IMG/VR virus record: IMGVR_UViG_3300042892_003753 | Coordinates: 1-23,525 of that record | DNA length: 23,525 nt | Strand: one strand, 5' to 3' | DNA from: a virus | Part shown: piece after piece, positions 131 through 14,591 of the stretch | How positions within the stretch are numbered: the stretch's first letter is position 1 | How the letters are laid out: each line of letters opens with the position of its first letter | Position numbers and translations under genes: made by a program | Notes under the pieces: generated by a model | What the model saw: the letters and a program-made list of their open reading frames with translations, nothing else | The model's database searches: none | What the model was told of the DNA's origin: nothing

Positions 131-430
131 ATGGATCTAAGTGGTGGGCATACATATGGTGTGCTCACTATTTTTTTCTATTTATTTTTTTATATATACG
201 TATCATACACAAATAGAAAATATTCAGATTTTGTCAAAATGAAAAAATTTTCAGATTTCAGGGTATATAATAGATATATGACAAATATACCATTATTACC
301 AGAGTATCCAGAACCACCTTCCCTGAGTGTAAAAATATTTTCAGAGACGGTTTGTAAAGATTGTGAATCAAAACCCATGGTTAATACTGACAACATGGGT
401 AGAGACACATCAATGTATAATCAAGGGTAG
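131..430 (+). CDS. Small single-pass membrane protein, hypothetical
   Basis: A 99-aa product with a strongly hydrophobic, aromatic segment at about residues 9-27 (VLTIFFYLFFYIYVSY), then a basic stretch rich in Lys and Arg and a polar tail containing CKDC. This predicts one N-terminal membrane helix with a short soluble tail. I do not recognise the family. It lies downstream of the Cys-rich mini-gene and converges with the minus-strand oxygenase gene, overlapping its 3' end by 10 bases. No clear Shine-Dalgarno precedes the ATG; a 10-base palindrome (CTGGTACCAG, 121-130) abuts it. The membrane segment is the main reason to treat it as real; a small accessory or lysis-related membrane protein is possible. 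Confidence 0.5.
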   Translation: MDLSGGHTYGVLTIFFYLFFYIYVSYTNRKYSDFVKMKKFSDFRVYNRYMTNIPLLPEYPEPPSLSVKIFSETVCKDCESKPMVNTDNMGRDTSMYNQG

Positions 431-1011
431 TTAGATCCATCATGCAGCTCAACGTCTGCAAATATTTCTGGATTTAAAATAACTGGGTTTTCTACTGTTC
501 CTCTAATAAAGGCTGTTGAAAAATATCTAATATTTGAACCAATAACCTTTTTAGGACCATGTAAGATATTTCCTCCATGCATAACTAACGATCTAGCTTT
601 TGGCTTGTAAACAATTTCAAGATCAGGGTATTCAATCTCGCCACCATCATAGTTATCATTATAATATATAACAATTCCATAACGAATATATTCTGATAAA
701 TGCTTTAACCAATAGTCTCTATGCTGTTGCATAGGTTCATGCTCTAAACATCTCTGTAATGCAGCATCTGGAATATACTCTGAGCTAATATATAGGTTTC
801 TTATATTGCTATTTATTTCTTCAAAAACTTTTGGTTTTTCACCATGGTATTGTTTTCCATAAAAAAATTCTTCTTTATCTTTTTCAGATAACGAGATCCA
901 CCAAGCATCTTCTTCTAGCAAATTGCAAAAGTCTAACACTTCTTTTTGTTGCTCTAATGTAACAAAATTTTCAATCTCGTATATGTCTGGAGAAAGACGA
1001 TTAACTTTCAA
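421..1011 (-). CDS. 2OG-Fe(II) oxygenase 1 (prolyl 4-hydroxylase-like)
   Basis: A 196-aa protein of the 2-oxoglutarate/Fe(II)-dependent dioxygenase superfamily, P4H-like branch. These enzymes use O2 and 2-oxoglutarate to hydroxylate a substrate, giving succinate and CO2. The metal triad is visible as H97-R-D99 (QQHRDYW) and distal H151 (ILHGP), with R162 as the likely 2OG-carboxylate ligand. Between them lies the family's typical block YYNDNYDGGEIEYP followed by YKPKARSLVMH. The start is TTG (CAA on the plus strand at 1009-1011), supported by an AGAGG ribosome site about 10 bases upstream inside the preceding gene, which it overlaps by 11 bases. It is the last gene of a four-gene minus-strand operon and lies apart from the seven related enzymes at 6765-13347. 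Substrate unknown. Confidence 0.9.
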   Translation of the reverse strand: MKVNRLSPDIYEIENFVTLEQQKEVLDFCNLLEEDAWWISLSEKDKEEFFYGKQYHGEKPKVFEEINSNIRNLYISSEYIPDAALQRCLEHEPMQQHRDYWLKHLSEYIRYGIVIYYNDNYDGGEIEYPDLEIVYKPKARSLVMHGGNILHGPKKVIGSNIRYFSTAFIRGTVENPVILNPEIFADVELHDGSNYP

Positions 1012-4402: not shown

Positions 4403-5131
4403 ATGGCCATATCAAAAAATATGGATGCTCCAAAAACCAGATATTCTGAAGCAGTAAAATCAACCAAAAGCATAGAGGCTAACAATACTGAGTATATAGC
4501 CGTGCCAGGAATACAGGGAGAAAAGGGTGAGGTAGGCCCACCAGGACCACAAGGACCTCAAGGCCCAAGAGGAGAGCGTGGCATTCCTGGAAAAGATGGT
4601 AAAGAAGGACCAAAAGGTGATCCTGGTAAGGGCGGTGGAGAGGGTTACGAAAGTCCATCAGGTCAATATCCAGGATGGGCATATTATCAAAACAAAAATA
4701 AAAAACCATTATTTTTAGGCCCTGAGAGAGGTAATGATGGTTGGGTAGATATTTTGATGGATGATGATGCAGATAATAATATTTTAAGATTTCTTCCAAA
4801 AAATTCAGTGTCACTTTGGAATTCAGTGACACAAAGAATTAACTTAAAGGGTTTAAAGGCAGGATCTATTATAACAATTCGTTATGATATTACTTTAAGC
4901 ACATTTAACAATAATACAGAGGTTTGGTTTAGGACAGTTACCCCAGACCTTTCATATGGGCCTACGACTTTGGTTGGCAACTTAAAATATCAGTTTGAAT
5001 ACGACCTATCCCTAGAACATACATTTTTTGTAGAAAATGAAAAAATGAAAACCCTAGGTGCATACTCACAGATCCTTACTGATAATGAGTCTTCAATGAT
5101 TGTTAAGTCTATGTATATAAATATTCTTTAA
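4403..5131 (+). CDS. Collagen-like tail-fibre protein
   Basis: A 242-aa protein. Residues 36-77 form 14 consecutive Gly-X-Y triplets (for example GPPGPQGPQGPRG), enough for a short collagen triple helix, so the protein is probably a trimeric fibre. Pro occupies the Y position at P47, P62 and P74, the X-Pro-Gly context that collagen prolyl 4-hydroxylases modify; Lys is at Y at K41 and K71. The N-terminal 35 residues would be the attachment part. The C-terminal 160 residues are beta-rich and likely form the receptor-binding head (SIITIRYDITLSTF..., YQFEYDLSLEHTFFV). It follows the BppU-like adaptor gene. Phage collagen-like fibres are well known; presence alongside eight P4H-like enzymes is not. 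Confidence 0.85.
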   Translation: MAISKNMDAPKTRYSEAVKSTKSIEANNTEYIAVPGIQGEKGEVGPPGPQGPQGPRGERGIPGKDGKEGPKGDPGKGGGEGYESPSGQYPGWAYYQNKNKKPLFLGPERGNDGWVDILMDDDADNNILRFLPKNSVSLWNSVTQRINLKGLKAGSIITIRYDITLSTFNNNTEVWFRTVTPDLSYGPTTLVGNLKYQFEYDLSLEHTFFVENEKMKTLGAYSQILTDNESSMIVKSMYINIL

Positions 5132-5194: not shown

Positions 5195-5201
5195 TATGAA
5201 C

Positions 5202-6041
5202 ATGAGCGCCCAGAAACCTAATTCCATTGATTCTTCAACAAAGTCAGCGCCACTTGCACCTACAATAGGAACAGCAACAAATGTTGGAACTGGTCGTGCC
5301 TATAATAATGGTTCTGCAACAATTACATTTACTGCACCTACATTTGATGGAAAACTACCAATCACTTCTTATACTGTAACATCTAGCGCTGGTGGATTTA
5401 CAGCATCTGGTGCTTCATCTCCATTAACTGTAACAGGTCTTGCTTCTGGTACAGCATATACATTTACAGTAACTGCTACTAATGCAGTTGGCACAAGCCC
5501 TGCCTCTGCTGCATCTAATAGTATTACTGCAACTACTGTTCCACAGGCTCCTACCATTGGTACCGCTACTGGTGGCGCATCTGGTGTTGTGTCAGTACCT
5601 TTTACCACTAATGCAACTGGTGGTTCTGCAATTACTGGATATACTGCAACATCTTCGTCTGCTCGCACAGCTACAGGAGCTTCTACTCCAATTGCATTTA
5701 CAGAAATTTCTGCTGGAACTTATACTTATACAGTTAGAGCAACAAATGCAAATGGTAACTCTGAAGTATCTGCTGCAAGTAATTCTGTAGTGTCAACATT
5801 TGGTCCGTTCTTCCCACCATTCTTTCCTCCATTCTTTCCGCCATTCTTCCCGTTCTTCCCATTCTTCCCACCGTTCTTCCCACCGTTCTTCCCATTCTTC
5901 CCACCGTTCTTCCCACCATTCTTCCCACCATTCTTCCCACCATTCTTCCCACCATTTTTTGGCGGTGGCAATAACAATTGTTCGCCTGGAAGAGCTAATT
6001 GCAGCGGCGATGGTGGCACTTGTGGAGACTGCTTCGCTTAA
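5202..6041 (+). CDS. FnIII-like fibre protein with Phe/Pro repeat and Cys-rich tail
   Basis: A 279-aa surface or fibre protein. Residues about 17-111 and 112-200 are two fibronectin type III-like domains, each starting (A/Q)APTIGTAT and carrying Y.(V/A)T.S and YT(F/Y)TV.ATNA.G.S signatures. Residues 202-253 are an uninterrupted tract of FFPP and FFP units. Residues 254-279 hold a Gly/Asn linker and four Cys (C260, C267, C274, C277). FnIII domains on phage tails commonly bind carbohydrate. The Phe/Pro tract is highly unusual: hydrophobic, Pro-rich and probably an extended rod or membrane-interacting segment. I chose the ATG at 5202 over 5196 because the promoter leaves no room to transcribe the first. 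The tract is a possible substrate of the nearby prolyl-hydroxylase-like enzymes (inference). Confidence 0.8.
   Translation: MSAQKPNSIDSSTKSAPLAPTIGTATNVGTGRAYNNGSATITFTAPTFDGKLPITSYTVTSSAGGFTASGASSPLTVTGLASGTAYTFTVTATNAVGTSPASAASNSITATTVPQAPTIGTATGGASGVVSVPFTTNATGGSAITGYTATSSSARTATGASTPIAFTEISAGTYTYTVRATNANGNSEVSAASNSVVSTFGPFFPPFFPPFFPPFFPFFPFFPPFFPPFFPFFPPFFPPFFPPFFPPFFPPFFGGGNNNCSPGRANCSGDGGTCGDCFA
5805..5960 (+). repeat. 156-base TTCTTCCC(A/G)CC(A/G) repeat encoding (FFPP)n
   Basis: Fifty-two codons, nearly all TTC and CCA/CCG, in 12-base (FFPP) units interrupted three times by 9-base (FFP) units. The right-hand copies are almost identical in DNA, while the left ones vary at third positions, so the array looks recently expanded at its right end. 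Slippage in units of 9 or 12 bases keeps frame and would change tract length. Confidence 0.9.
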
Positions 6042-6077: not shown

Positions 6078-6500
6078 GTGTACGCATGTTTAGTAAAAGA
6101 TACTGAAAACGTTTGGGAAGTATTTGGAAAATACGAACTACCAGAAAATATTAAAAACAGAGTAGAGGCTGCTCGCACCAGCGGGTATCCAATTGTTGGA
6201 ATGATTACTACCATGTATCAAGATTCTGCAAGAGTAGGATCTACATTTGACGGAACATACTTTTCTGGTGGAAATTTTCCAGAATGGATGGACGGACTAG
6301 ATTGGTTGGCAAATTCAACCTATTCATTTTTATGCAATAATGTTATTATTTTTCAACTTATTCAGTCAAACAATACAGCAAAACAAGAAAAGTATCAGGC
6401 TGCATTTTTAGGAGAAACCACTCTTGTTCCAGTTCCAATAGGTGATCAAATATCTTTGGGAGACATTTGGGACGGTACCACCTTTATGCCAAGGGCATAG
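6078..6500 (+). CDS. Conserved-looking phage protein of unknown function
   Basis: A 140-aa soluble protein starting with GTG, preceded by AAGGAG at good spacing. It has an amphipathic N-terminal half (ELPENIKNRVEAARTSGYPIVG), a Gly/aromatic centre with TFDGTYFSGGNFPEWMDGLDW, and a C-terminus ending LGDIWDGTTFMPRA. The phrases STFDGTYF and IWDGTTF recall the short WDG repeats of phage tail-assembly or fibre-tip proteins, so it may be a small tail accessory protein. No catalytic motif seen. It heads the operon that carries the second zinc-ribbon paralogue and seven oxygenases, with one base between its stop and the next start. Confidence 0.7.
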   Translation: MYACLVKDTENVWEVFGKYELPENIKNRVEAARTSGYPIVGMITTMYQDSARVGSTFDGTYFSGGNFPEWMDGLDWLANSTYSFLCNNVIIFQLIQSNNTAKQEKYQAAFLGETTLVPVPIGDQISLGDIWDGTTFMPRA

Positions 6501-6501
6501 T

Positions 6502-6762
6502 ATGTCTGCTTGGAAAGAATGGAAAAAGTCTCTTGGAGACTCAAGGCCCTGGCACCTCCTTGATCATGATAAAGTAATAGAAGATCAGTCTATTATTAAT
6601 AACAGAATGAGTATATGTAGGTCTTGTGAGTTTTTTATTCCAATGACTCAACAATGCAAAAAATGTGGTTGTGTTATGACAATAAAGACAAAGTTAGAAA
6701 ATGCTGGATGTCCAATAAATAAGTGGCCAAGAGAAGACATTAAAAAAAATAATGAGGAGTAA
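6502..6762 (+). CDS. Cys-rich zinc-ribbon-like small protein (paralogue B)
   Basis: An 86-aa paralogue of the protein at 1206-1403. Cys spacing is identical: CxxC-x9-CxxCxC-x12-C (C39, C42, C52, C55, C57, C70), with shared ICRSCE, CKKCGC, IKTKLE and CPINKW. Relative to its paralogue it has a longer N-terminus (WKEWKKSLGDSRPWHLLDHDK) and a charged C-terminal extension. I chose the ATG at 6502 rather than an earlier in-frame ATG at 6442 inside the preceding gene, because AAGGG lies just upstream of 6502 and the extra 20 residues are unlike the family. Two bases separate it from the oxygenase gene at 6765. Zinc binding is predicted; function unknown. Confidence 0.85.
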   Translation: MSAWKEWKKSLGDSRPWHLLDHDKVIEDQSIINNRMSICRSCEFFIPMTQQCKKCGCVMTIKTKLENAGCPINKWPREDIKKNNEE

Positions 6763-6764
6763 AT

Positions 6765-7478
6765 ATGAATCAGTATGATGAAAACTCAAACTATTGGTTT
6801 ACAAAAGATCGTTCAGAAACAGCCACAATTAGGCTTAAACCACGACAAGTAACAAAAGATATCGTTGTTGAAAACCTAGGACTAGGCCTGCATGTATATC
6901 ATGACACATTTTCTTTAAATGATGCAAATAGATATATAAATACCATTGAGTCAAACTTGGGCGGTAATGGAAAGTATAACTGGTCAGAAGCAAAGGTAAC
7001 AAACTCGGATGTTCCAATTAAAAAAGCCAGAGACTGTGTAGATTTTAAGTACAAGCAAGAAAATCTTGGACCACGCAATAGCGATAATGCTGAACTTCTA
7101 GATTTGCACCAAGAGATATATGAAAAACTAAAAATGTGCATAGATGATTACGCTCAGTATTGGGGTATCAACGTTGTCTACTATGAAGCTTTTAACTTTG
7201 TCAAGTATGAAGGGGCTGGTACTCACTTTAACATACATGCTGATCATGGACCAGCCTATAATTGCACGGTATCTGCTGTTATCTATATTAACGATGATTA
7301 TGTTGGCGGGGACTTAAAGTTTCCAAGACTTGATAATTTAGTTTACAAGCCAAGAGTTGGAGACATTGCAGTCTTCCCATCAAACTACATTTATGAGCAT
7401 GCATCTCTTCCAATGGAGTCAGGAACAAAATACTGTGTCGTCATCATGACAGACATAAATGAAATTGGTCATAAGTAA
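6765..7478 (+). CDS. 2OG-Fe(II) oxygenase 2
   Basis: A 237-aa 2-oxoglutarate/Fe(II) dioxygenase. The metal triad reads H158-A-D160 (NIHADHG) and H212 (IYEHAS), with K222 ten residues on as the likely 2OG ligand. The core block YINDDYVGGDLKFP...VYKPRVGDIAVFPSN is typical of P4H-like enzymes. It is closest to oxygenase 3 (8263-8919): both share a (K/Y)(A/R)RDC.DFK motif before the core, HxDHG, YNCTVS and VFPSN/IFPSN, so they are probably a duplicated pair. GAGGAG lies just before the ATG. Its last base overlaps the start of the DUF6065-like gene (TAATG), implying coupled translation. Substrate unknown. Confidence 0.92.
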   Translation: MNQYDENSNYWFTKDRSETATIRLKPRQVTKDIVVENLGLGLHVYHDTFSLNDANRYINTIESNLGGNGKYNWSEAKVTNSDVPIKKARDCVDFKYKQENLGPRNSDNAELLDLHQEIYEKLKMCIDDYAQYWGINVVYYEAFNFVKYEGAGTHFNIHADHGPAYNCTVSAVIYINDDYVGGDLKFPRLDNLVYKPRVGDIAVFPSNYIYEHASLPMESGTKYCVVIMTDINEIGHK

Positions 7479-8254
7479 TGAGTATAAAAAATAATGTAGC
7501 TATTTTTAGGTCGTTTAGATCATGGCTAAATAAAGATAGCTCATCAGTTCCTGCACCAACACAAAAAGAAATTCCTCAATGGTATAAGGATGCAGATAGG
7601 TTTGCAAAAATGCCAAATGGAGAATACTATCAAGCAAATAAAATGGTTTGTCCAGTTGCTAAAAAAGGAACAACTGATGATTATGGAAAGATTCCAACTT
7701 GGAAGGCTTGTCCAGCTATCATGGATGGATTCTCAACAGGCTATGTTTTAAAAACACCTTGTGATATTGAGTTTGTAAAAAATTCATATGGTTCTCTTGA
7801 TGTTAAGATATCAGATCAAAGGTATCAAGATTTTTGTGGAAAGCGTTCATCTATGCCACAGTTTGAACATCCAAAAGGTTTCTATAAAGATCATTTTGCT
7901 TGGTATCCAGATTGGGCCATAGAGTTACCAGAAGGATATAGTGGATTATTTATGACACCCATGAATAGGTTTGATCTTCCTTTTATTAATACAACAGGGA
8001 TAGTTGATAACGACAAGGTGCATCTTCTTGGAACTTTTCCATTTTTTATTGCAGAAGGATGGGAAGGTGTAATTCCAGCAGGAACTCCATACGTACAGAT
8101 TCTTCCTTTTAAAAGAGAAGACTGGTCCCATGAGATTAAGTTTCAACAGGAACAAGAAATTTATGATAAAATGGTAAAGAACGCAAATTTTTATCGCCAA
8201 CCTGACGGCGGAGTTTATAAAAACAAAGTCTGGTCTAGAAGAGAATATAAATAG
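7478..8254 (+). CDS. DUF6065-like protein A, function unknown
   Basis: A 258-aa soluble protein. The N-terminal third has IPQWYKDADRF and three Cys in VCPVAKK...WKACPAI; the middle has GYVLKTPCDIEF, where family members have a GW/GY..(P)..D(I/L)...; the C-terminal third has GTFPFFIAEGW.GVIPAGTPYVQILPFKRE, which reads like the end of a cupin-type beta-barrel. I associate this with the DUF6065-type phage and bacterial family, found in gene sets with 2OG-Fe(II) oxygenases; no function is established that I know of. The protein at 8919-9647 has the same overall order but is diverged. It lies between oxygenases 2 and 3 with overlapping start, so it is likely a partner of theirs. Confidence 0.6.
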   Translation: MSIKNNVAIFRSFRSWLNKDSSSVPAPTQKEIPQWYKDADRFAKMPNGEYYQANKMVCPVAKKGTTDDYGKIPTWKACPAIMDGFSTGYVLKTPCDIEFVKNSYGSLDVKISDQRYQDFCGKRSSMPQFEHPKGFYKDHFAWYPDWAIELPEGYSGLFMTPMNRFDLPFINTTGIVDNDKVHLLGTFPFFIAEGWEGVIPAGTPYVQILPFKREDWSHEIKFQQEQEIYDKMVKNANFYRQPDGGVYKNKVWSRREYK

Positions 8255-8262
8255 GGGGATTT

Positions 8263-8919
8263 ATGACAACTTGGACAAAGAAAGAAAACCTTGGAAACGG
8301 TATAACTGTATATAGGGATGTAATTAAAAAAGATATCAATGTGATCAGTAGACTTGAGTCTAACCTAAAGCCAGAGGGAGATAAAACTGGATATAGTTGG
8401 CTACCAGCATATGTTGGGTACCAACAGTTAATGCCAGAATATAGAGATTGTAATGACTTTAAGTTTAAAAAGACAGATATAGAGAATGACAAGAGTCATT
8501 CAGGCTTAGAGCTTCAGTCTTTGTGGCAAGACGTATACGATGCATGTTTCCCAGCCGTAGAAGACTACAGAAGAGACTATAACATCATGGATTTAAAGTA
8601 TTGGGAAGCTATGAACTTTATTAAGTATGGCCCAGGTCAGCACTTCCAAGAACACCATGACCATGGATTTTCATATAACTGTACAGTATCATTAGTAGCA
8701 TATCCAAATGATGACTATGAAGGCGGAGAGCTATATTTTAGATTACAAGATCTAAAGATTAAACCTCAAGCTGGAGATCTTTACATATTTCCATCAAACT
8801 TTATGTATCCACATCAAGCAATGCCAGTAAACTCTGGAATCAAATATTCTATTGTTACAATGTTAGACTATAACAAAAAGTTTCATACTCCAGAAATGTA
8901 TGTTGCTGACAACGACTAA
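8263..8919 (+). CDS. 2OG-Fe(II) oxygenase 3
   Basis: A 218-aa dioxygenase, near paralogue of oxygenase 2. Triad H131-H-D133 (EHHDHG) and H184 (YPHQAM), with K194 as likely 2OG ligand. Core block YPNDDYEGGELYFR...IKPQAGDLYIFPSN is intact. It shares RDC.DFKFK and YNCTVS with oxygenase 2 but lacks the first 25 residues. The start ATG follows a G-rich ribosome site (AGGGGG). Its stop overlaps the ATG of the second DUF6065-like gene (TAATG). The repeated gene order oxygenase then DUF6065-like, twice in a row, suggests that a two-gene unit was duplicated. Confidence 0.92.
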   Translation: MTTWTKKENLGNGITVYRDVIKKDINVISRLESNLKPEGDKTGYSWLPAYVGYQQLMPEYRDCNDFKFKKTDIENDKSHSGLELQSLWQDVYDACFPAVEDYRRDYNIMDLKYWEAMNFIKYGPGQHFQEHHDHGFSYNCTVSLVAYPNDDYEGGELYFRLQDLKIKPQAGDLYIFPSNFMYPHQAMPVNSGIKYSIVTMLDYNKKFHTPEMYVADND

Positions 8920-9647
8920 TGTTAAATATATCTGTTGAAAAAATAAATGGTTCTTCCTTTACAATTTCCCCAATGTCAATAAAAAGAGACTGGATGGATG
9001 CAACATCAGAGGGTCATGCCTATAGATGTTTTCCAGTAACACAATCAAATGTAATTGGCTGGAGCCTTTCTTGTTTAGAAGATATTGAGTTTATTTGGGA
9101 TGGAATAAATGATCAAACCCAAGACCATATTGAAATAATTAAAGCACCAAAAGGTTCATATGGCGGAAGAGGTCAATCATCCATAAGTCTTAATACTGGA
9201 TTAATATTCAAAACCTCTGACGATATAAGTATATTTACTATTAATCCAGTAAACTATTTTAACAATGATTTTGAAACCATGTCTAATTTAATCAGCACGT
9301 CATTTTACGATAATCCATTGCCACTTGCAATAAAAGCAAAAAAAGCAGGAGAGCAAGTAATAATTAAATCTAAAACTCCATTAGCAACCATAGTGCCAAT
9401 TTCTCTATCATTACTTAATAACTCTTCTATTGAAATATATGATTATAAAGATCAAGATAGAAAAAGACTAGAGGCTAATATTTCTTATGGCAACGCAGCA
9501 CAGGAGGTAAACTCTTCTGGGGCATGGACAGATTGGTATAGAGATGCAGTAAACGAAAAAGGAGAGTCTTTGGGCAAACATGAAGTAAAAGCTTTAAGGC
9601 TTTTTGTTATTGATAGCACGTCTAGCAAAGGAAATGGTATAATCTAA
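8919..9647 (+). CDS. DUF6065-like protein B, function unknown
   Basis: A 242-aa soluble protein. It carries YRCFPVTQSNVIGWSL.CLEDIEFIWDG, the Cys/Pro then GW...(P/L)xDi.(F/W).WdG signature I associate with DUF6065-like proteins, then an FKTSDDISIFTINPVNYF segment and a late strand pair ending KTPLATIVPISL, equivalent to GTPYVQILPFK in the protein at 7478. The C-terminal 70 residues are charged and probably helical. It is diverged from paralogue A and may have a different partner or substrate. Translation is coupled to oxygenase 3 by the overlapping TAATG. The last codons contain the promoter of the next gene. Confidence 0.6.
   Translation: MLNISVEKINGSSFTISPMSIKRDWMDATSEGHAYRCFPVTQSNVIGWSLSCLEDIEFIWDGINDQTQDHIEIIKAPKGSYGGRGQSSISLNTGLIFKTSDDISIFTINPVNYFNNDFETMSNLISTSFYDNPLPLAIKAKKAGEQVIIKSKTPLATIVPISLSLLNNSSIEIYDYKDQDRKRLEANISYGNAAQEVNSSGAWTDWYRDAVNEKGESLGKHEVKALRLFVIDSTSSKGNGII
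9635..9643 (+). promoter_or_regulatory. Internal extended -10 promoter, leaderless start at 9650
   Basis: TGGTATAAT inside the end of the upstream gene, six bases before the ATG at 9650. It would let oxygenases 4-8 and the SDR be expressed separately from the first half of the operon. Confidence 0.65.
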
Positions 9648-9649
9648 TT

Positions 9650-10324
9650 ATGGATAATATAGAAGCTTCTGTTGTAATAAGAAAACCATCAAAGACCCCT
9701 TCTGGCTGGTTTGGTGATGGAAAAGAAATGATTGTTGAACTAGAAAATTTTATGACTCAAGAAGAAATAGAGTTTTTAGAAAAAGCTGCAAAGTCTTTAA
9801 CCATCTGGGACGTAACAGAAAGCCATGTTAATGAAAACGGTACAGTAGTATATGATTCAGATTACTGGAAAGATAGAGTAGCAACAAGTCAAAGTTTAAA
9901 CAAAAACAATCCAAAAATAGCTCCAATTGTTTCAGGACTATTTGAAAGATTAAAGCCGATTGTTGAAGAGTTTTACAAGGTAGAAGTTATGCCTACAGGA
10001 CCTACAATTGTTAGATGGCTACCAGGACAGTTGCAAAATCCACATGCAGACAAAGAACTTCATGAAGGGCCAGATGCAGGACTTCCAAATGATTTTCCAA
10101 ACTACGATCTTTCAAGTCTATTTTATTTAAACGAAGACTACGAAGGCGGAGAACTTTACTTTCCATTGCAAGGAATTAAATTTAAGCCTAAAAAAGGTGC
10201 TGCATATTTTTTTCCAGGGGATAAAAACTATATTCACGGAGTAACAGAAATTAAAAGTGGTATTAGATATACCTGCCCATTCTTCTGGGAAATTACAGAA
10301 CATACTGGAGACAGGAAGCCATAA
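9650..10324 (+). CDS. 2OG-Fe(II) oxygenase 4
   Basis: A 224-aa dioxygenase. Triad H132-A-D134 (NPHADKE) and H196 (YIHGV), with R206 as the 2OG ligand; core YLNEDYEGGELYFP...FKPKKGAAYFFPGD. It is the family member closest to textbook P4H-like phage enzymes (LHGV.EI.SG.RY ending). The N-terminal 110 residues include an LENFMTQEEIEFLEKAA segment, the usual helix that opens P4H-like domains. All six Arg codons are AGA or AGG. The start is defined by the internal leaderless promoter. The next gene starts on the base after its stop. Confidence 0.92.
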   Translation: MDNIEASVVIRKPSKTPSGWFGDGKEMIVELENFMTQEEIEFLEKAAKSLTIWDVTESHVNENGTVVYDSDYWKDRVATSQSLNKNNPKIAPIVSGLFERLKPIVEEFYKVEVMPTGPTIVRWLPGQLQNPHADKELHEGPDAGLPNDFPNYDLSSLFYLNEDYEGGELYFPLQGIKFKPKKGAAYFFPGDKNYIHGVTEIKSGIRYTCPFFWEITEHTGDRKP

Positions 10325-11197
10325 ATGAGAACATCAAACCTTGAAGCAATAGAAATATATCCAAACATTCTTGTTTACAAAAACATGTTTAAAGATATTT
10401 CAAAGTCTTACAAGGTTTTAACAGACTCTTTAGTAGAGTCAGAGGATAGGCTTTTTAGTCCTTGGACACAGTGGTCTATTTTTGGAGATTATTTAAATCC
10501 AATAATTCCTAATTTTTCTATGTCAGATAAATTTGGAAGTATAAAAGATATAGAAACAACAACAGAGACTCAAGAAAATCAAAAAAACTTTGCTGTAGAG
10601 ATGATGGAAAAGTTTCATTTAGTTACAGAAGATTATATCAAAAGACATAATATTAATATAGATTTAAATGAAACATCTGTAGATGAGTTTGGTAACACCG
10701 TACCTACCTGGAGATGGACAGGAGGAACAATAGGTAAGTATCATGTAAGCAGCCAAGATGAAAAAATTGGAATGAGATATCATTCAGACTATATAAGAGA
10801 ACAAGGCTATGCTCCAGGATATAAGTTTGTTGTAACATGTACAATATATTTTAATGATAACTATGAAGGTGGAGAAGTAGACTTTGTAATGGGCGATAAG
10901 CTTGTAAAATACAAGCCAGAAGCAGGAGATCTTTTAGTCTTCCCATCAGGACACCCAGACTACTTGACAGAAGATGGAATGCCATACTTGCATGCAGTTA
11001 TGCCATCATACAATAATAATAAGTTTTTATCAAGAATGTATTGGCAGAAATATCAAAAAGGAACAGATGAGTGGTATGAAAAAGAAAAAGAGTTTGGAAA
11101 AAAGATTTGGGCTTCCATGCAACCAGAACTAGAAAAAGAATTTAGAGACAAGCATCCACAAAGATCTGTAATAGAAAATGGAGTAAGAATACAGTGA
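10325..11197 (+). CDS. 2OG-Fe(II) oxygenase 5 (long form)
   Basis: A 290-aa dioxygenase, the longest of the eight. Triad H153-S-D155 (RYHSDY) and H223 (YLHAVMP), with K233 as likely 2OG ligand; core YFNDNYEGGEVDF...KYKPEAGDLLVFPSG. Extra length comes from an N-terminal region of about 140 residues with an inserted polar segment, and from a C-terminal helical tail of about 50 residues (DEWYEKEKEFGKKIWASM). Such additions often shape substrate choice. All ten Arg codons are AGA or AGG. The final bases overlap the GTG start of the next gene (GTGA). Substrate unknown. Confidence 0.9.
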   Translation: MRTSNLEAIEIYPNILVYKNMFKDISKSYKVLTDSLVESEDRLFSPWTQWSIFGDYLNPIIPNFSMSDKFGSIKDIETTTETQENQKNFAVEMMEKFHLVTEDYIKRHNINIDLNETSVDEFGNTVPTWRWTGGTIGKYHVSSQDEKIGMRYHSDYIREQGYAPGYKFVVTCTIYFNDNYEGGEVDFVMGDKLVKYKPEAGDLLVFPSGHPDYLTEDGMPYLHAVMPSYNNNKFLSRMYWQKYQKGTDEWYEKEKEFGKKIWASMQPELEKEFRDKHPQRSVIENGVRIQ

Positions 11198-11949
11198 ATC
11201 TAAAAAACAAAAAAAGATTAACAAAAGACATCGTTGTTTATGAAAACTTTATAAGCAAAGAAGATTGCAAAAAGATGATTCAAGCCCTAGATGCTCAAGC
11301 AGACAGCGGAGCAATCTCTTGGATGCCTATATCATTTTATGAATCATACTCTTCAGTTTTGCCACAAGACAACGATCAAGAAGTTATTGATGCTGGATTA
11401 AACCCAACCATATTTTCAGACATTGAAAATGCAATGCCAGAAGCAATTGCATCAGTACATGGGCTTGACCCAAAAACAATTTCAAAAATTGGATACCATA
11501 CGCAAAAATGGGAGCCAGGAGCATATGCAAGAGTTCACTCAGATAATACTGACGAGCATGGTAACTCTGGAGCATTTACAAGAAGCAGATACGCTGGATT
11601 CTTATACCTGAACGATGACTTTCAAGGTGGTCTTCTTAGATTCCCAGATCAAGACATAGAGATTAAACCACAGGTAGGAATGCTTGCTGTTTTTGACGGG
11701 GGATTTAACAACATGCACGAAGTATCCCTAATAGAAAGTGGAGTAAGATATACAATCGGATCTTTCTGGGATGACAGAGAAGAGTCAGATTACCCACAGG
11801 AGTTAAGAGACGCTTGGGCTGCAGAAATGAAAGCCACTAGAGCACAACAAGAAATTGAAAGAGCAGAATGGCAGGAGTTGCTTAAGCAGGGTTGGAAGTT
11901 AGACGCCAACGGTAATAAATACAAGTTAGAAGACATTGCAAATGATTGA
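11194..11949 (+). CDS. 2OG-Fe(II) oxygenase 6
   Basis: A 251-aa dioxygenase with GTG start overlapping the previous stop by four bases. Triad H115-S-D117 (ARVHSDN) and H175 (NMHEVS), with R185 as the 2OG ligand. Core YLNDDFQGGLLRFP...IKPQVGMLAVFDGG: the usual (F)PSG/FPG ending is replaced by FDGG, a variation near the active-site rim. The N-terminus KRLTKDIVVYENFISKEDC is the common opening of P4H-like enzymes. A C-terminal extension of about 55 residues is charged and helical (ATRAQQEIERAEWQELLKQ). Its stop codon lies within the next gene. Confidence 0.9.
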   Translation: MNLKNKKRLTKDIVVYENFISKEDCKKMIQALDAQADSGAISWMPISFYESYSSVLPQDNDQEVIDAGLNPTIFSDIENAMPEAIASVHGLDPKTISKIGYHTQKWEPGAYARVHSDNTDEHGNSGAFTRSRYAGFLYLNDDFQGGLLRFPDQDIEIKPQVGMLAVFDGGFNNMHEVSLIESGVRYTIGSFWDDREESDYPQELRDAWAAEMKATRAQQEIERAEWQELLKQGWKLDANGNKYKLEDIAND

Positions 11950-12601
11950 GACTTTTAAAAAACATTTAATAGATAGTGGGTATGAAGTTAAAGATATTAC
12001 TCCAGAACTATTCTCTGTTGAAAACTTTTTATCAGAAGACCAAATATCTACCTTTTGGGATATTATTAATAGTACGTCCCAAGAAGATTGGGAAGTAGAG
12101 TACCACGCAAACTTAAAGTGGTTTTGCATGGAAAAATTTGGTAGAGATGATGTAGACAATTTAGTTGCTGAAGGTAAGTTTGAAATTACTCAAAATTGGA
12201 AAGATAAAAACTTTAATATATCAAGTCATGAGATATACAGGCCATTATATGATGACATAAACTCAATGGTAATAGAGTCTGATCCAGAGTTGGTTTTAAG
12301 TGGTTTTGCAACAATTCAAAGAATGCAAGCAGGAGTAGAGTTAAAATCTCACACTGATCAAAAAACAGACCCATCTATAAAGTACGCTACGATTGTGTAT
12401 ATTAATGATGACTACGCAGATGGCGAACTATTTTTTCCAAACCTTGACATCCAGTTAAAGCCTAAGCCAGGAACTATGTTATTTTTTCCAGGTAATGAGC
12501 AATATGAGCATGGAGTTAAGCACGTAGGAAAGGGTCCAATAAGATATGTTCTTGTTGGGTTTATTAAAGAAAAAAACTTTTATGAAAAAAATAAGTACTA
12601 A
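11942..12601 (+). CDS. 2OG-Fe(II) oxygenase 7
   Basis: A 219-aa dioxygenase. Triad H137-T-D139 (KSHTDQ) and H190 (YEHGVK), with R201 (GPIRYVL) as the 2OG ligand; core YINDDYADGELFFP...LKPKPGTMLFFPGN. The GG of the other members' (E/D)GGEL block is DG here. I chose the ATG at 11942 over an in-frame TTG six bases upstream. It overlaps the previous gene by eight bases, so translation is coupled. N-terminal residues 20-60 include PELFSVENFLSEDQISTFW, the usual opening helix. Substrate unknown. Confidence 0.9.
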   Translation: MIETFKKHLIDSGYEVKDITPELFSVENFLSEDQISTFWDIINSTSQEDWEVEYHANLKWFCMEKFGRDDVDNLVAEGKFEITQNWKDKNFNISSHEIYRPLYDDINSMVIESDPELVLSGFATIQRMQAGVELKSHTDQKTDPSIKYATIVYINDDYADGELFFPNLDIQLKPKPGTMLFFPGNEQYEHGVKHVGKGPIRYVLVGFIKEKNFYEKNKY

Positions 12602-12612
12602 GGGAGAAGCAA

Positions 12613-13347
12613 ATGAATAAAGAAATACTAGATCCAAAAGCATACTACTATACGGATGCTATTGAAGACTTTGATACCTTTAAAAGGGTTTGGAAAGAGC
12701 TAGATACCCTTGAGCAATATACAGAGTCAGGCGTAAATGTTTGGAACCCTTGGACTGCTTCTAATGATAAAAATTTTATTTACGGAGAAACAAAAACATT
12801 TGATATTAATGCGATAAATAGGCTTAGTGGAGAAGTAGCTGAAAAAAATAAATATATTTACGATGCTATTATGACTACAATGTATAACGTTTGCAAAGAC
12901 TACGCTTCTTCTTTAGGTGATTTTGACGAGCCAAGACTTTTCCCAACATTTAATATAAAAAAGTACAATACTGGAGTTGGCATGGGAGCACATTTTGACC
13001 AGCTAGATGGGGATAAGACATTAAGATACTCATTGGTTATGTACTTAAATGATGACTGTGAAGGCGGAGAAATTTCTTTTCAGTTAAAAGACTATGATGG
13101 CGGATGGACAAGTGCAGATGGCTTCTCTAAAGGATCAGCACCAGCTGTAGATTTAGATTATGATATATCTGTTGCTAATGGTGCAATTGATTTTGGATTA
13201 AAACCAAAAGCAAATAGTGTAATTATATTTCCAGCATTTCCTCCATATTTTCACACGGCACATGTAGTAAAGTCTGGATTTAAGTATATGATTCCTGGTC
13301 ACTGGATACACAATGAAATGAATCTTAATCGCAACGAAAGCATGTAA
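12613..13347 (+). CDS. 2OG-Fe(II) oxygenase 8 (insert-bearing)
   Basis: A 244-aa dioxygenase. Triad H127-F-D129 (GAHFDQ) and H214 (YFHTAH), with K224 ten residues on; H217 is an alternative third ligand but its spacing to the basic residue is worse. After the core YLNDDCEGGEISFQ there is an insert of about 30 residues (roughly 161-192, Gly/Ser/Asp-rich) before LKPKANSVIIFPAFPPYF, seen in none of the other seven. The GGGAGA ribosome site before the ATG is good. Its stop is followed directly by the SDR start, which suggests the two act in sequence or are co-regulated. Confidence 0.9.
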   Translation: MNKEILDPKAYYYTDAIEDFDTFKRVWKELDTLEQYTESGVNVWNPWTASNDKNFIYGETKTFDINAINRLSGEVAEKNKYIYDAIMTTMYNVCKDYASSLGDFDEPRLFPTFNIKKYNTGVGMGAHFDQLDGDKTLRYSLVMYLNDDCEGGEISFQLKDYDGGWTSADGFSKGSAPAVDLDYDISVANGAIDFGLKPKANSVIIFPAFPPYFHTAHVVKSGFKYMIPGHWIHNEMNLNRNESM

Positions 13348-14017: not shown

Positions 14018-14036
14018 ACTAGGAAGGAAACCTAGT
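14018..14036. other. Short hairpin between convergent genes
   Basis: ACTAGG and CCTAGT (6 bp) around AAGGAAA, at the convergence of the SDR and lysin genes and overlapping the last lysin codons. No T-run on either side, so termination is uncertain. Confidence 0.3.
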
Positions 14037-14591
14037 CATCCAAACCTTAGTCTTTGGCGTAATTCCATGCCAAGCAGACCAGTTTTTTCCACCGTTACTC
14101 ATATGATAGGCAACCTGTGCATTAATAACAGGATTTAACAATTCACTGTTAAAGTTAATGCCAAACTTTGCCTTGCGATCATTCTTTAGCATTCCAATCA
14201 TATTTATCTGGAATATACCGTAAGAGTTGTCGCCAGTTTTTTCATTGCCATTAAAGGCCAGTGGTCGCCCATTAGACTCTTTCTTAGCAACAGCCCAAGC
14301 CTTCACAAGTCCATCACCACGAAAACCAACGGCATATAGTAACTCTTTTAACTGACGATCTGTAAGGCTAACAGCATCTTGATACTTATGTAGAACGTTT
14401 AGGTCCTTTTTTACTGCTACCAGACTTTTAGGCTTAGAAACCAAAAAAACCGCCTTGGCGGTTGAAGGTTCAGACAGCGCTGGTTTACTCAGATTATTTT
14501 CAGTACTTAAAGCATTAGCTGCATTACTTAATGGTGCAATAAGCCCCAGTGCAGCAAGGATTCCAATCCAAATCTTTTTATCTCTTCTCAT
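14019..14591 (-). CDS. Secreted SLT-type lytic transglycosylase / phage lysin
   Basis: A 190-aa peptidoglycan-cleaving enzyme. A signal peptide (MRRDKK, hydrophobic core IWIGILAALGLIA, cleavage near ANA, about residue 27) is followed by a linker to about residue 75 and a lysozyme-like SLT domain. The catalytic Glu is probably E105 (AVAKKESNG), followed by SYGIFQIN (123-130), the canonical SYGLFQI motif, and NPVINAQVAYHMSNGG..WSAW. SLT enzymes cleave the MurNAc-GlcNAc bond and form 1,6-anhydro ends. With its own promoter, ribosome site (AGGAGG) and opposite orientation, it is controlled apart from its neighbours. It may be the endolysin, exported by the host Sec system; a virion-entry role is less likely given the signal peptide. 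Confidence 0.88.
   Translation of the reverse strand: MRRDKKIWIGILAALGLIAPLSNAANALSTENNLSKPALSEPSTAKAVFLVSKPKSLVAVKKDLNVLHKYQDAVSLTDRQLKELLYAVGFRGDGLVKAWAVAKKESNGRPLAFNGNEKTGDNSYGIFQINMIGMLKNDRKAKFGINFNSELLNPVINAQVAYHMSNGGKNWSAWHGITPKTKVWMTRFPS

Follow-up and report, generated by a model that had tools for sequence, protein, structure and literature searches.

A phage protein with a Phe/Pro-only tract, and its linked array of prolyl-hydroxylase-like oxygenases, as a candidate hydroxylation cassette

The window, by which we mean the whole stretch of DNA that was analysed, is a 23.5-kb viral contig (23,525 nucleotides) of a lake phage. It encodes a 279-residue protein (P0001; ORF 5202-6041, plus strand, with an alternative in-frame ATG at 5196 as a possible earlier start) in which a tract built only of Phe and Pro (F/P tract) follows two FnIII-type domains. 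The gene is followed by seven 2OG-Fe(II) oxygenases in a run extending from 6765 to 13347. The features of the locus are as follows.

421..1011, minus strand: divergent eighth oxygenase-like protein with the H-x-D...H residues (by alignment)
4403..5131, plus strand: collagen-like (Gly-X-Y) tail-type protein, adjoining the F/P gene upstream (Pfam Collagen E 4e-6, just under cut-off; PHROG tail fibre E 2e-15)
5202..6041, plus strand: F/P-tract protein with two FnIII domains, F/P tract and Cys tail
5253..5798, plus strand: two FnIII-type beta-sandwich domains, about residues 18-199 (Pfam fn3; AlphaFold2 strands, pLDDT about 80-96)
5805..5960, plus strand: F/P tract, 52 residues, in DNA units of 12 bp and 9 bp
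5961..6038, plus strand: tail GGGNNNCSPGRANCSGDGGTCGDCFA with four Cys, swapped for others in near relatives
6442..6762, plus strand: small Cys-rich DUF6171 protein, lying after the F/P gene and before the array (Pfam E 2e-6)
6765..7478, plus strand: 2OG-Fe(II) oxygenase 1, P4H-like (PF13640; first PDB match P4H, E 2e-6)
8263..8919, plus strand: 2OG-Fe(II) oxygenase 2, P4H-like (PF13640; first PDB match P4H, E 1e-8)
8919..9647, plus strand: DUF6065 protein inside the array (Pfam E 4e-24)
9650..10324, plus strand: 2OG-Fe(II) oxygenase 3, P3H/P4H-like (PF13640; first PDB match prolyl 3-hydroxylase 1, E 5e-10)
10325..11197, plus strand: 2OG-Fe(II) oxygenase 4, P4H-like (PF13640; first PDB match P4H, E 2e-4)
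11194..11949, plus strand: 2OG-Fe(II) oxygenase 5, P3H/P4H-like (PF13640; P3H1 E 2e-12; AlphaFold2 pLDDT 90)
11936..12601, plus strand: 2OG-Fe(II) oxygenase 6, P3H/P4H-like (PF13640; P3H1 E 3e-5)
12613..13347, plus strand: 2OG-Fe(II) oxygenase 7 (PF13640; PKHD hydroxylase E 4e-5, then chlorella-virus P4H E 1e-4)

The first-pass annotation described FnIII domains, 52 residues of Phe and Pro alone, and four Cys residues, and these particulars are exact: residues 202-253 form an unbroken run of 28 Phe and 24 Pro, and the Cys residues lie at positions 260, 267, 274 and 277. Phe and Pro together make up 9% of the residues outside the tract; at that frequency the probability of 52 in succession is about 10^-54, and chance is excluded as the source. 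The tract contains no Gly, fails the Gly-X-Y test and is thus not collagen-like. As for the FnIII content, Pfam fn3 (PF00041) matches residues 35-106 (E 2e-12); the same profile gave no match to the second domain, but AlphaFold2 yields two beta-sandwich-like sets of strands overall, with high pLDDT. The tract itself was modelled without secondary structure (pLDDT about 60). A tail location of the protein is plausible, since it matches the phrog_6977 minor tail protein (E 3e-8) and its neighbours are tail-fibre genes. The tract had also been called extremely hydrophobic, a label that may not suit the mature protein, should its prolines be hydroxylated.

In IMG/VR, at least 384 relatives of the FnIII part exist, and the same FnIII-F/P architecture is seen again in hundreds of viral contigs. 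The C-termini of these relatives swap freely among F/P tracts, Gly-rich, (GAF)n and Pro-rich repeats, Cys-rich tips, ..FK ends and Hint-like domains. The four-Cys tail of the window protein is one among many tail types. Unrelated tips occur on N-terminal parts that are at least 85% identical, and in one pair of loci (L003 and L371) the tips differ behind a 240-bp flank that is 99.6% identical. The name 'Hint' for the long C-termini of relatives rests on a weak Hint_2 match below the cut-off (E 7e-4; 20.5 bits against 28.4; 28 residues). The long relatives resemble actinobacterial siphoviruses, with a 2985-residue tape-measure-like protein and a WhiB-like protein; Gp23 (PF07068), sought as a mark of a T4-like lineage, matched 0 of 49, but the controls gave no match either, so that this result says little about lineage.

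The first annotation had suggested a search for (FFPP)n proteins in phages and Actinobacteria. Each of two tract patterns was found in at least 120 stretches of viral contigs, and 84,980 GTDB genomes gave 12, mostly spurious, not real tract proteins, or phage-like; for this reason we conclude that the F/P tract is no isolated oddity but a module of wide distribution, enriched in viruses. Among 50,697 phage records, tblastn with the protein and blastn with the tract found nothing, although low-complexity masking limits the sensitivity of these searches, and the string FFPPFFPPFF was not found in the open-access literature searched. Tandem repeats are poorly handled by short-read assembly, and one could therefore suspect an assembly or annotation artefact. 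This suspicion is refuted by the recurrence of the architecture across many samples and hundreds of contigs, by synonymous codon variation and by the open frames, and we give it practically no credence.

Since the tract is succeeded by tips rich in Cys, by ..FK ends or by Hint-like domains, it may be a stalk bearing an exchangeable end. In addition, two unrelated proteins of one phage, G032 (L297:15370-18777 and L300:3740-4705, both on the minus strand), have a C-terminal motif in common (GPYFPYFTIPGAE and NPYFPYFTLPGVQ), and two proteins of another, G035, end in RGY after F/P stretches; the common tail in each pair may be a docking or recognition signal. One could envision, alternatively, that the tract is an unmodified hydrophobic anchor or self-assembly segment for membrane insertion or docking of tail proteins. 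The very high Phe content, the like endings of these unrelated protein pairs and the ..FK-COOH termini of many tracts would fit such a role. However, a continuous FFPP repeat would hardly fold into a transmembrane helix, given its Pro content, the polar, Cys-rich or Hint-like tips past the tract fit a stalk better, and an anchor leaves the oxygenase array unexplained. We think that an anchor function is very improbable.

Tandem Repeats Finder (TRF) resolved the tract DNA into a 12-bp unit, TTCTTCCCACCA, present in 13.2 copies with an 85% match. The units at the right end, which the first reading had called nearly identical, are identical (TTC TTC CCA CCA repeated), and the left units carry synonymous changes. 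Near-identical alleles were paired by a 240-bp upstream flank at least 93% identical. Tract length differed in 14 of 34 such pairs with the same tail, always in frame, with length series such as 82/94/106/118, 119/132/145, 63/76 and 89/104 residues. Tract length is therefore not fixed among near-identical alleles, and the in-frame variation that the annotation predicted is supported; its attribution to slippage is less firm, for assembly collapse of the repeats or recombination may also account for it. Neighbouring FFPP units differ on average by 1.5 of 12 nucleotides, and just 19% are identical, so that most tracts are not freshly slipped. The tract might still be regarded chiefly as a slippage-prone surface rod of variable length in which modification has no role. 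Whole-unit, in-frame differences in 14 of 34 pairs and the near-identical units at the right end are in keeping with this idea; against it, most units carry synonymous differences, the length differences could stem from assembly or recombination, and neither the linkage to oxygenases nor the loss of these enzymes beside Pro-free repeats, both described below, is explained. We regard it as quite unlikely.

The array lies beyond the coordinates of the first annotation, which did not mention it. All seven array proteins pass the PF13640 cut-off of 27 bits, with 33-54 bits, and the iron-binding triad H-x-D...H (H158, D160, H212) is invariant in 8 of 8 aligned proteins; Pfam gave no match to the divergent protein at 421..1011. 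Profiles built from orthologues of six of the seven oxygenases had a prolyl 3- or 4-hydroxylase as the first PDB match, and that of the seventh had a PKHD-type hydroxylase first and the chlorella-virus P4H second. The model of the protein encoded at 11194-11949 (pLDDT 90) was closest in fold to algal P4H with (Ser-Pro)5 (Z 19.3), followed by P3H1 (Z 18.8) and the lysyl hydroxylase LH3 (Z 16.7). These comparisons argue that the array members are prolyl 3-/4-hydroxylase-like enzymes, at identities to known prolyl hydroxylases of only about 15-22%. The nearly equal closeness of LH3 in the predicted fold is a counterpoint to this assignment. The fold neighbours of 11194-11949 also include bacterial P4Hs that modify EF-Tu.

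Other genes accompany the oxygenases. A 258-residue protein without a Pfam match (7478-8254) is, like the DUF6065 protein at 8919-9647, a regular member of the arrays, and DUF6171 look-alikes lie near oxygenases in L099, L136 and G014. Glutathione-peroxidase-like proteins occur within several arrays (L229:8181-9119, Pfam GSHPx E 1e-6; by eye also L251:6713-7369, L251 10838-11452 and G016 26692-27465) and are possibly a redox partner. Past the array, on the strand opposite the tail genes, the window carries a transglycosylase-like protein with a signal-peptide-like start (14019-14591, minus strand; SLT_3, E 1e-17), a look-alike of which is present in G032.

The association between the F/P gene and the oxygenases was counted in loci that had not been picked by an oxygenase, scoring same-strand oxygenases in the 2.5 kb downstream of the gene. 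Such an enzyme was present at 99 of 109 genes with terminal or Hint-type tracts, that is, at 85/93 terminal-tract genes and 14/16 tract-plus-Hint genes. Short internal tracts, located between domains, mostly lack the array (3 of 12 have it) and were treated as a separate class that is not counted as support. In the reverse test, an F/P gene was found upstream of orthologues of the oxygenase at 9650-10324 in 40 of the 42 loci with room for it, and the two exceptions are loci that end near the expected slot. A divergent oxygenase of another lineage (59-100% identity) had an F/P gene upstream in 65 of 68 loci; in one of the three exceptions (L505) the slot is occupied by a short F/P tract, and the remaining two have the same offsets. 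The link persists across seven unrelated N-terminal types and 19 clusters of first oxygenases (60% identity). PF13640 matches were present in 86 of 95 F/P contigs (mostly >16 kb), usually 6-13 in each, and in 5 of 25 FnIII relatives without a tract. The F/P gene and the oxygenases are thus tightly linked in both directions. A collagen-like protein was also considered as the sole partner of the array and was ruled out, given that such a gene is present in only 24 of 151 F/P loci.

A second aromatic repeat class was seen in FnIII proteins with (GAF)n or (FSPFGVFG)n repeats (L020, L033, L061, L069 and L525-L589), in most of which Hint-like domains come next. The (GAF)n proteins share the FnIII-repeat-Hint architecture of their F/P kin, with a repeat that lacks Pro, and they serve as a natural control. 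Among loci with at least 2.5 kb downstream, no oxygenase followed the FnIII + (GAF)n + Hint gene in any of 33, and one followed a Gly-rich FnIII gene in 1 of 33. Oxygenase-selected loci were left out of the final contrast between F/P and GAF loci, for which Fisher's test gave p of about 1e-17 with ancestry uncorrected. The FnIII tree contains four changes between GAF and F/P, two of them on well-supported branches; because there are just four swaps, this p value overstates the evidence and a phylogenetic sign test is without power. Two comparisons serve to counter confounding by lineage. Backbone homologues of at least 50% identity are common to the F/P phages and 53 of 65 GAF loci. In two syntenic pairs (L536/G072 and L573/G093), a conserved fibre gene and a conserved ribonucleotide reductase gene flank the region, and between them lies either the GAF gene with one other gene or the F/P gene with 13 genes, nine of which are oxygenases. 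The F/P side of both swaps carries an array of 8-9 kb, and F/P gene and array come and go together. In L536 and L573, a look-alike of the window's 7478-8254 protein is the sole gene between GAF-Hint and the reductase gene. The array is lost when the repeat is without Pro. Elsewhere on the GAF contigs, PF13640 matches are not wholly absent (25 of 44, mostly in 0-1 copies), and some phages carry several, up to six; such enzymes can therefore have other roles.

One interpretation of these results is that the F/P gene and the oxygenases are both passengers of a single tail-gene module, with the enzymes acting on collagen-like tail proteins, glycans or host proteins such as EF-Tu, and that the tract is a plain rod. 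The collagen-like gene directly upstream in the window, also present in G032, the EF-Tu-modifying P4Hs among the fold neighbours, and the oxygenases in some GAF phages and in cyanophages without a detected F/P relative are consistent with this. However, few F/P loci have a collagen-like gene at all, the array accompanies F/P tracts on unrelated N-terminal domains, and it tracks Pro in the repeat despite a common backbone and FnIII-Hint architecture. We consider the passenger explanation unlikely, although it deserves to be weighed.

Because the row of oxygenases follows the F/P gene in hundreds of related phages and is missing without Pro, the phage probably hydroxylates its own rod. We therefore favour, at a probability of roughly 60%, the reading that the tract provides the substrate in a phage prolyl-hydroxylation cassette. 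The F/P-tract protein would be an adhesin or fibre subunit associated with the tail, with its FnIII domains at the end nearer the virion, its F/P rod extended and its tip exchangeable. The rod prolines would be hydroxylated in the infected cell by the six to ten P3H/P4H-like 2OG-Fe(II) enzymes encoded directly downstream as part of one cassette. Such a modification, itself a prediction, would be expected to stiffen and solubilise an otherwise insoluble rod, as hydroxyproline does in collagen and in the extensins of plants, and the repeat DNA would permit changes of rod length and swaps of the tip. The collagen-like protein at 4403..5131 may be a second substrate. There are two counterpoints: seven enzymes are many for one simple repeat, and the collagen-like neighbour would be an equally good substrate for prolyl hydroxylases in the window.

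Parts of this arrangement have precedents. The vCPH of Chlorella virus PBCV-1 (PDB 5C5T), which acts on Pro-rich or collagen-like peptides, likewise has a virus-encoded P4H fold and is among the PDB matches of several window oxygenases; it is, however, one enzyme of a giant algal virus, whereas the phage has an array of seven tied to an F/P repeat and not to collagen. Collagen P3H1 and P4H, with LH3, are the best sequence or fold matches of array members, and in the collagen system, as proposed here, several enzymes act on one repetitive protein. At the identities given above, the phage array differs from it in having no ER and no CRTAP/PPIB, and FFPP is not Gly-X-Y. Extensins are, like the F/P rod, Pro-rich rods with aromatic residues, and algal P4H (PDB 3GZE) is the closest fold match; the tract has no Ser-Hyp glycosylation motif, the window array showed no glycosyltransferase, and the likeness is one of analogy only. 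Collagen-like tail proteins of E. coli prophages are also repetitive, Pro-containing rods, but they form Gly-X-Y triple helices and have no F/P repeat (PMC3368898). In lake phage DSL-LC01 (OQ999401.1 101148-107690, L591), collagen-like genes adjoin those for a glycosyltransferase and a tryptophan halogenase; this group may be a further cassette by which repetitive tail proteins are modified. Our search of the open-access literature found no phage in which an array of hydroxylases goes with an F/P repeat.

Viral P4HA auxiliary genes are reported to be abundant in aquatic viromes, where their use 'remains cryptic' (PMC9301287). Those genes are described as single metabolic genes without a substrate, whereas the window presents a clustered array together with a candidate substrate. 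It is possible, and we propose it tentatively as having a little less than an even chance, that the F/P tail protein and its line of six to ten P3H/P4H enzymes constitute a transferable cassette of aquatic phages, which would produce a dense pattern of FFPP hydroxylation, in which the repeat would be the junction for tip swaps and rod-length changes among near-identical phages, and which would be a reason for the abundance of P4H in viromes. If the hydroxylation reading is true, bacteriophages would have a means of heavily hydroxylating the prolines of a structural protein, and the product would be a protein rod of a new type. The linked candidate substrate and the Pro-free control in the same backbone make the use of P4H directly testable by mass spectrometry.
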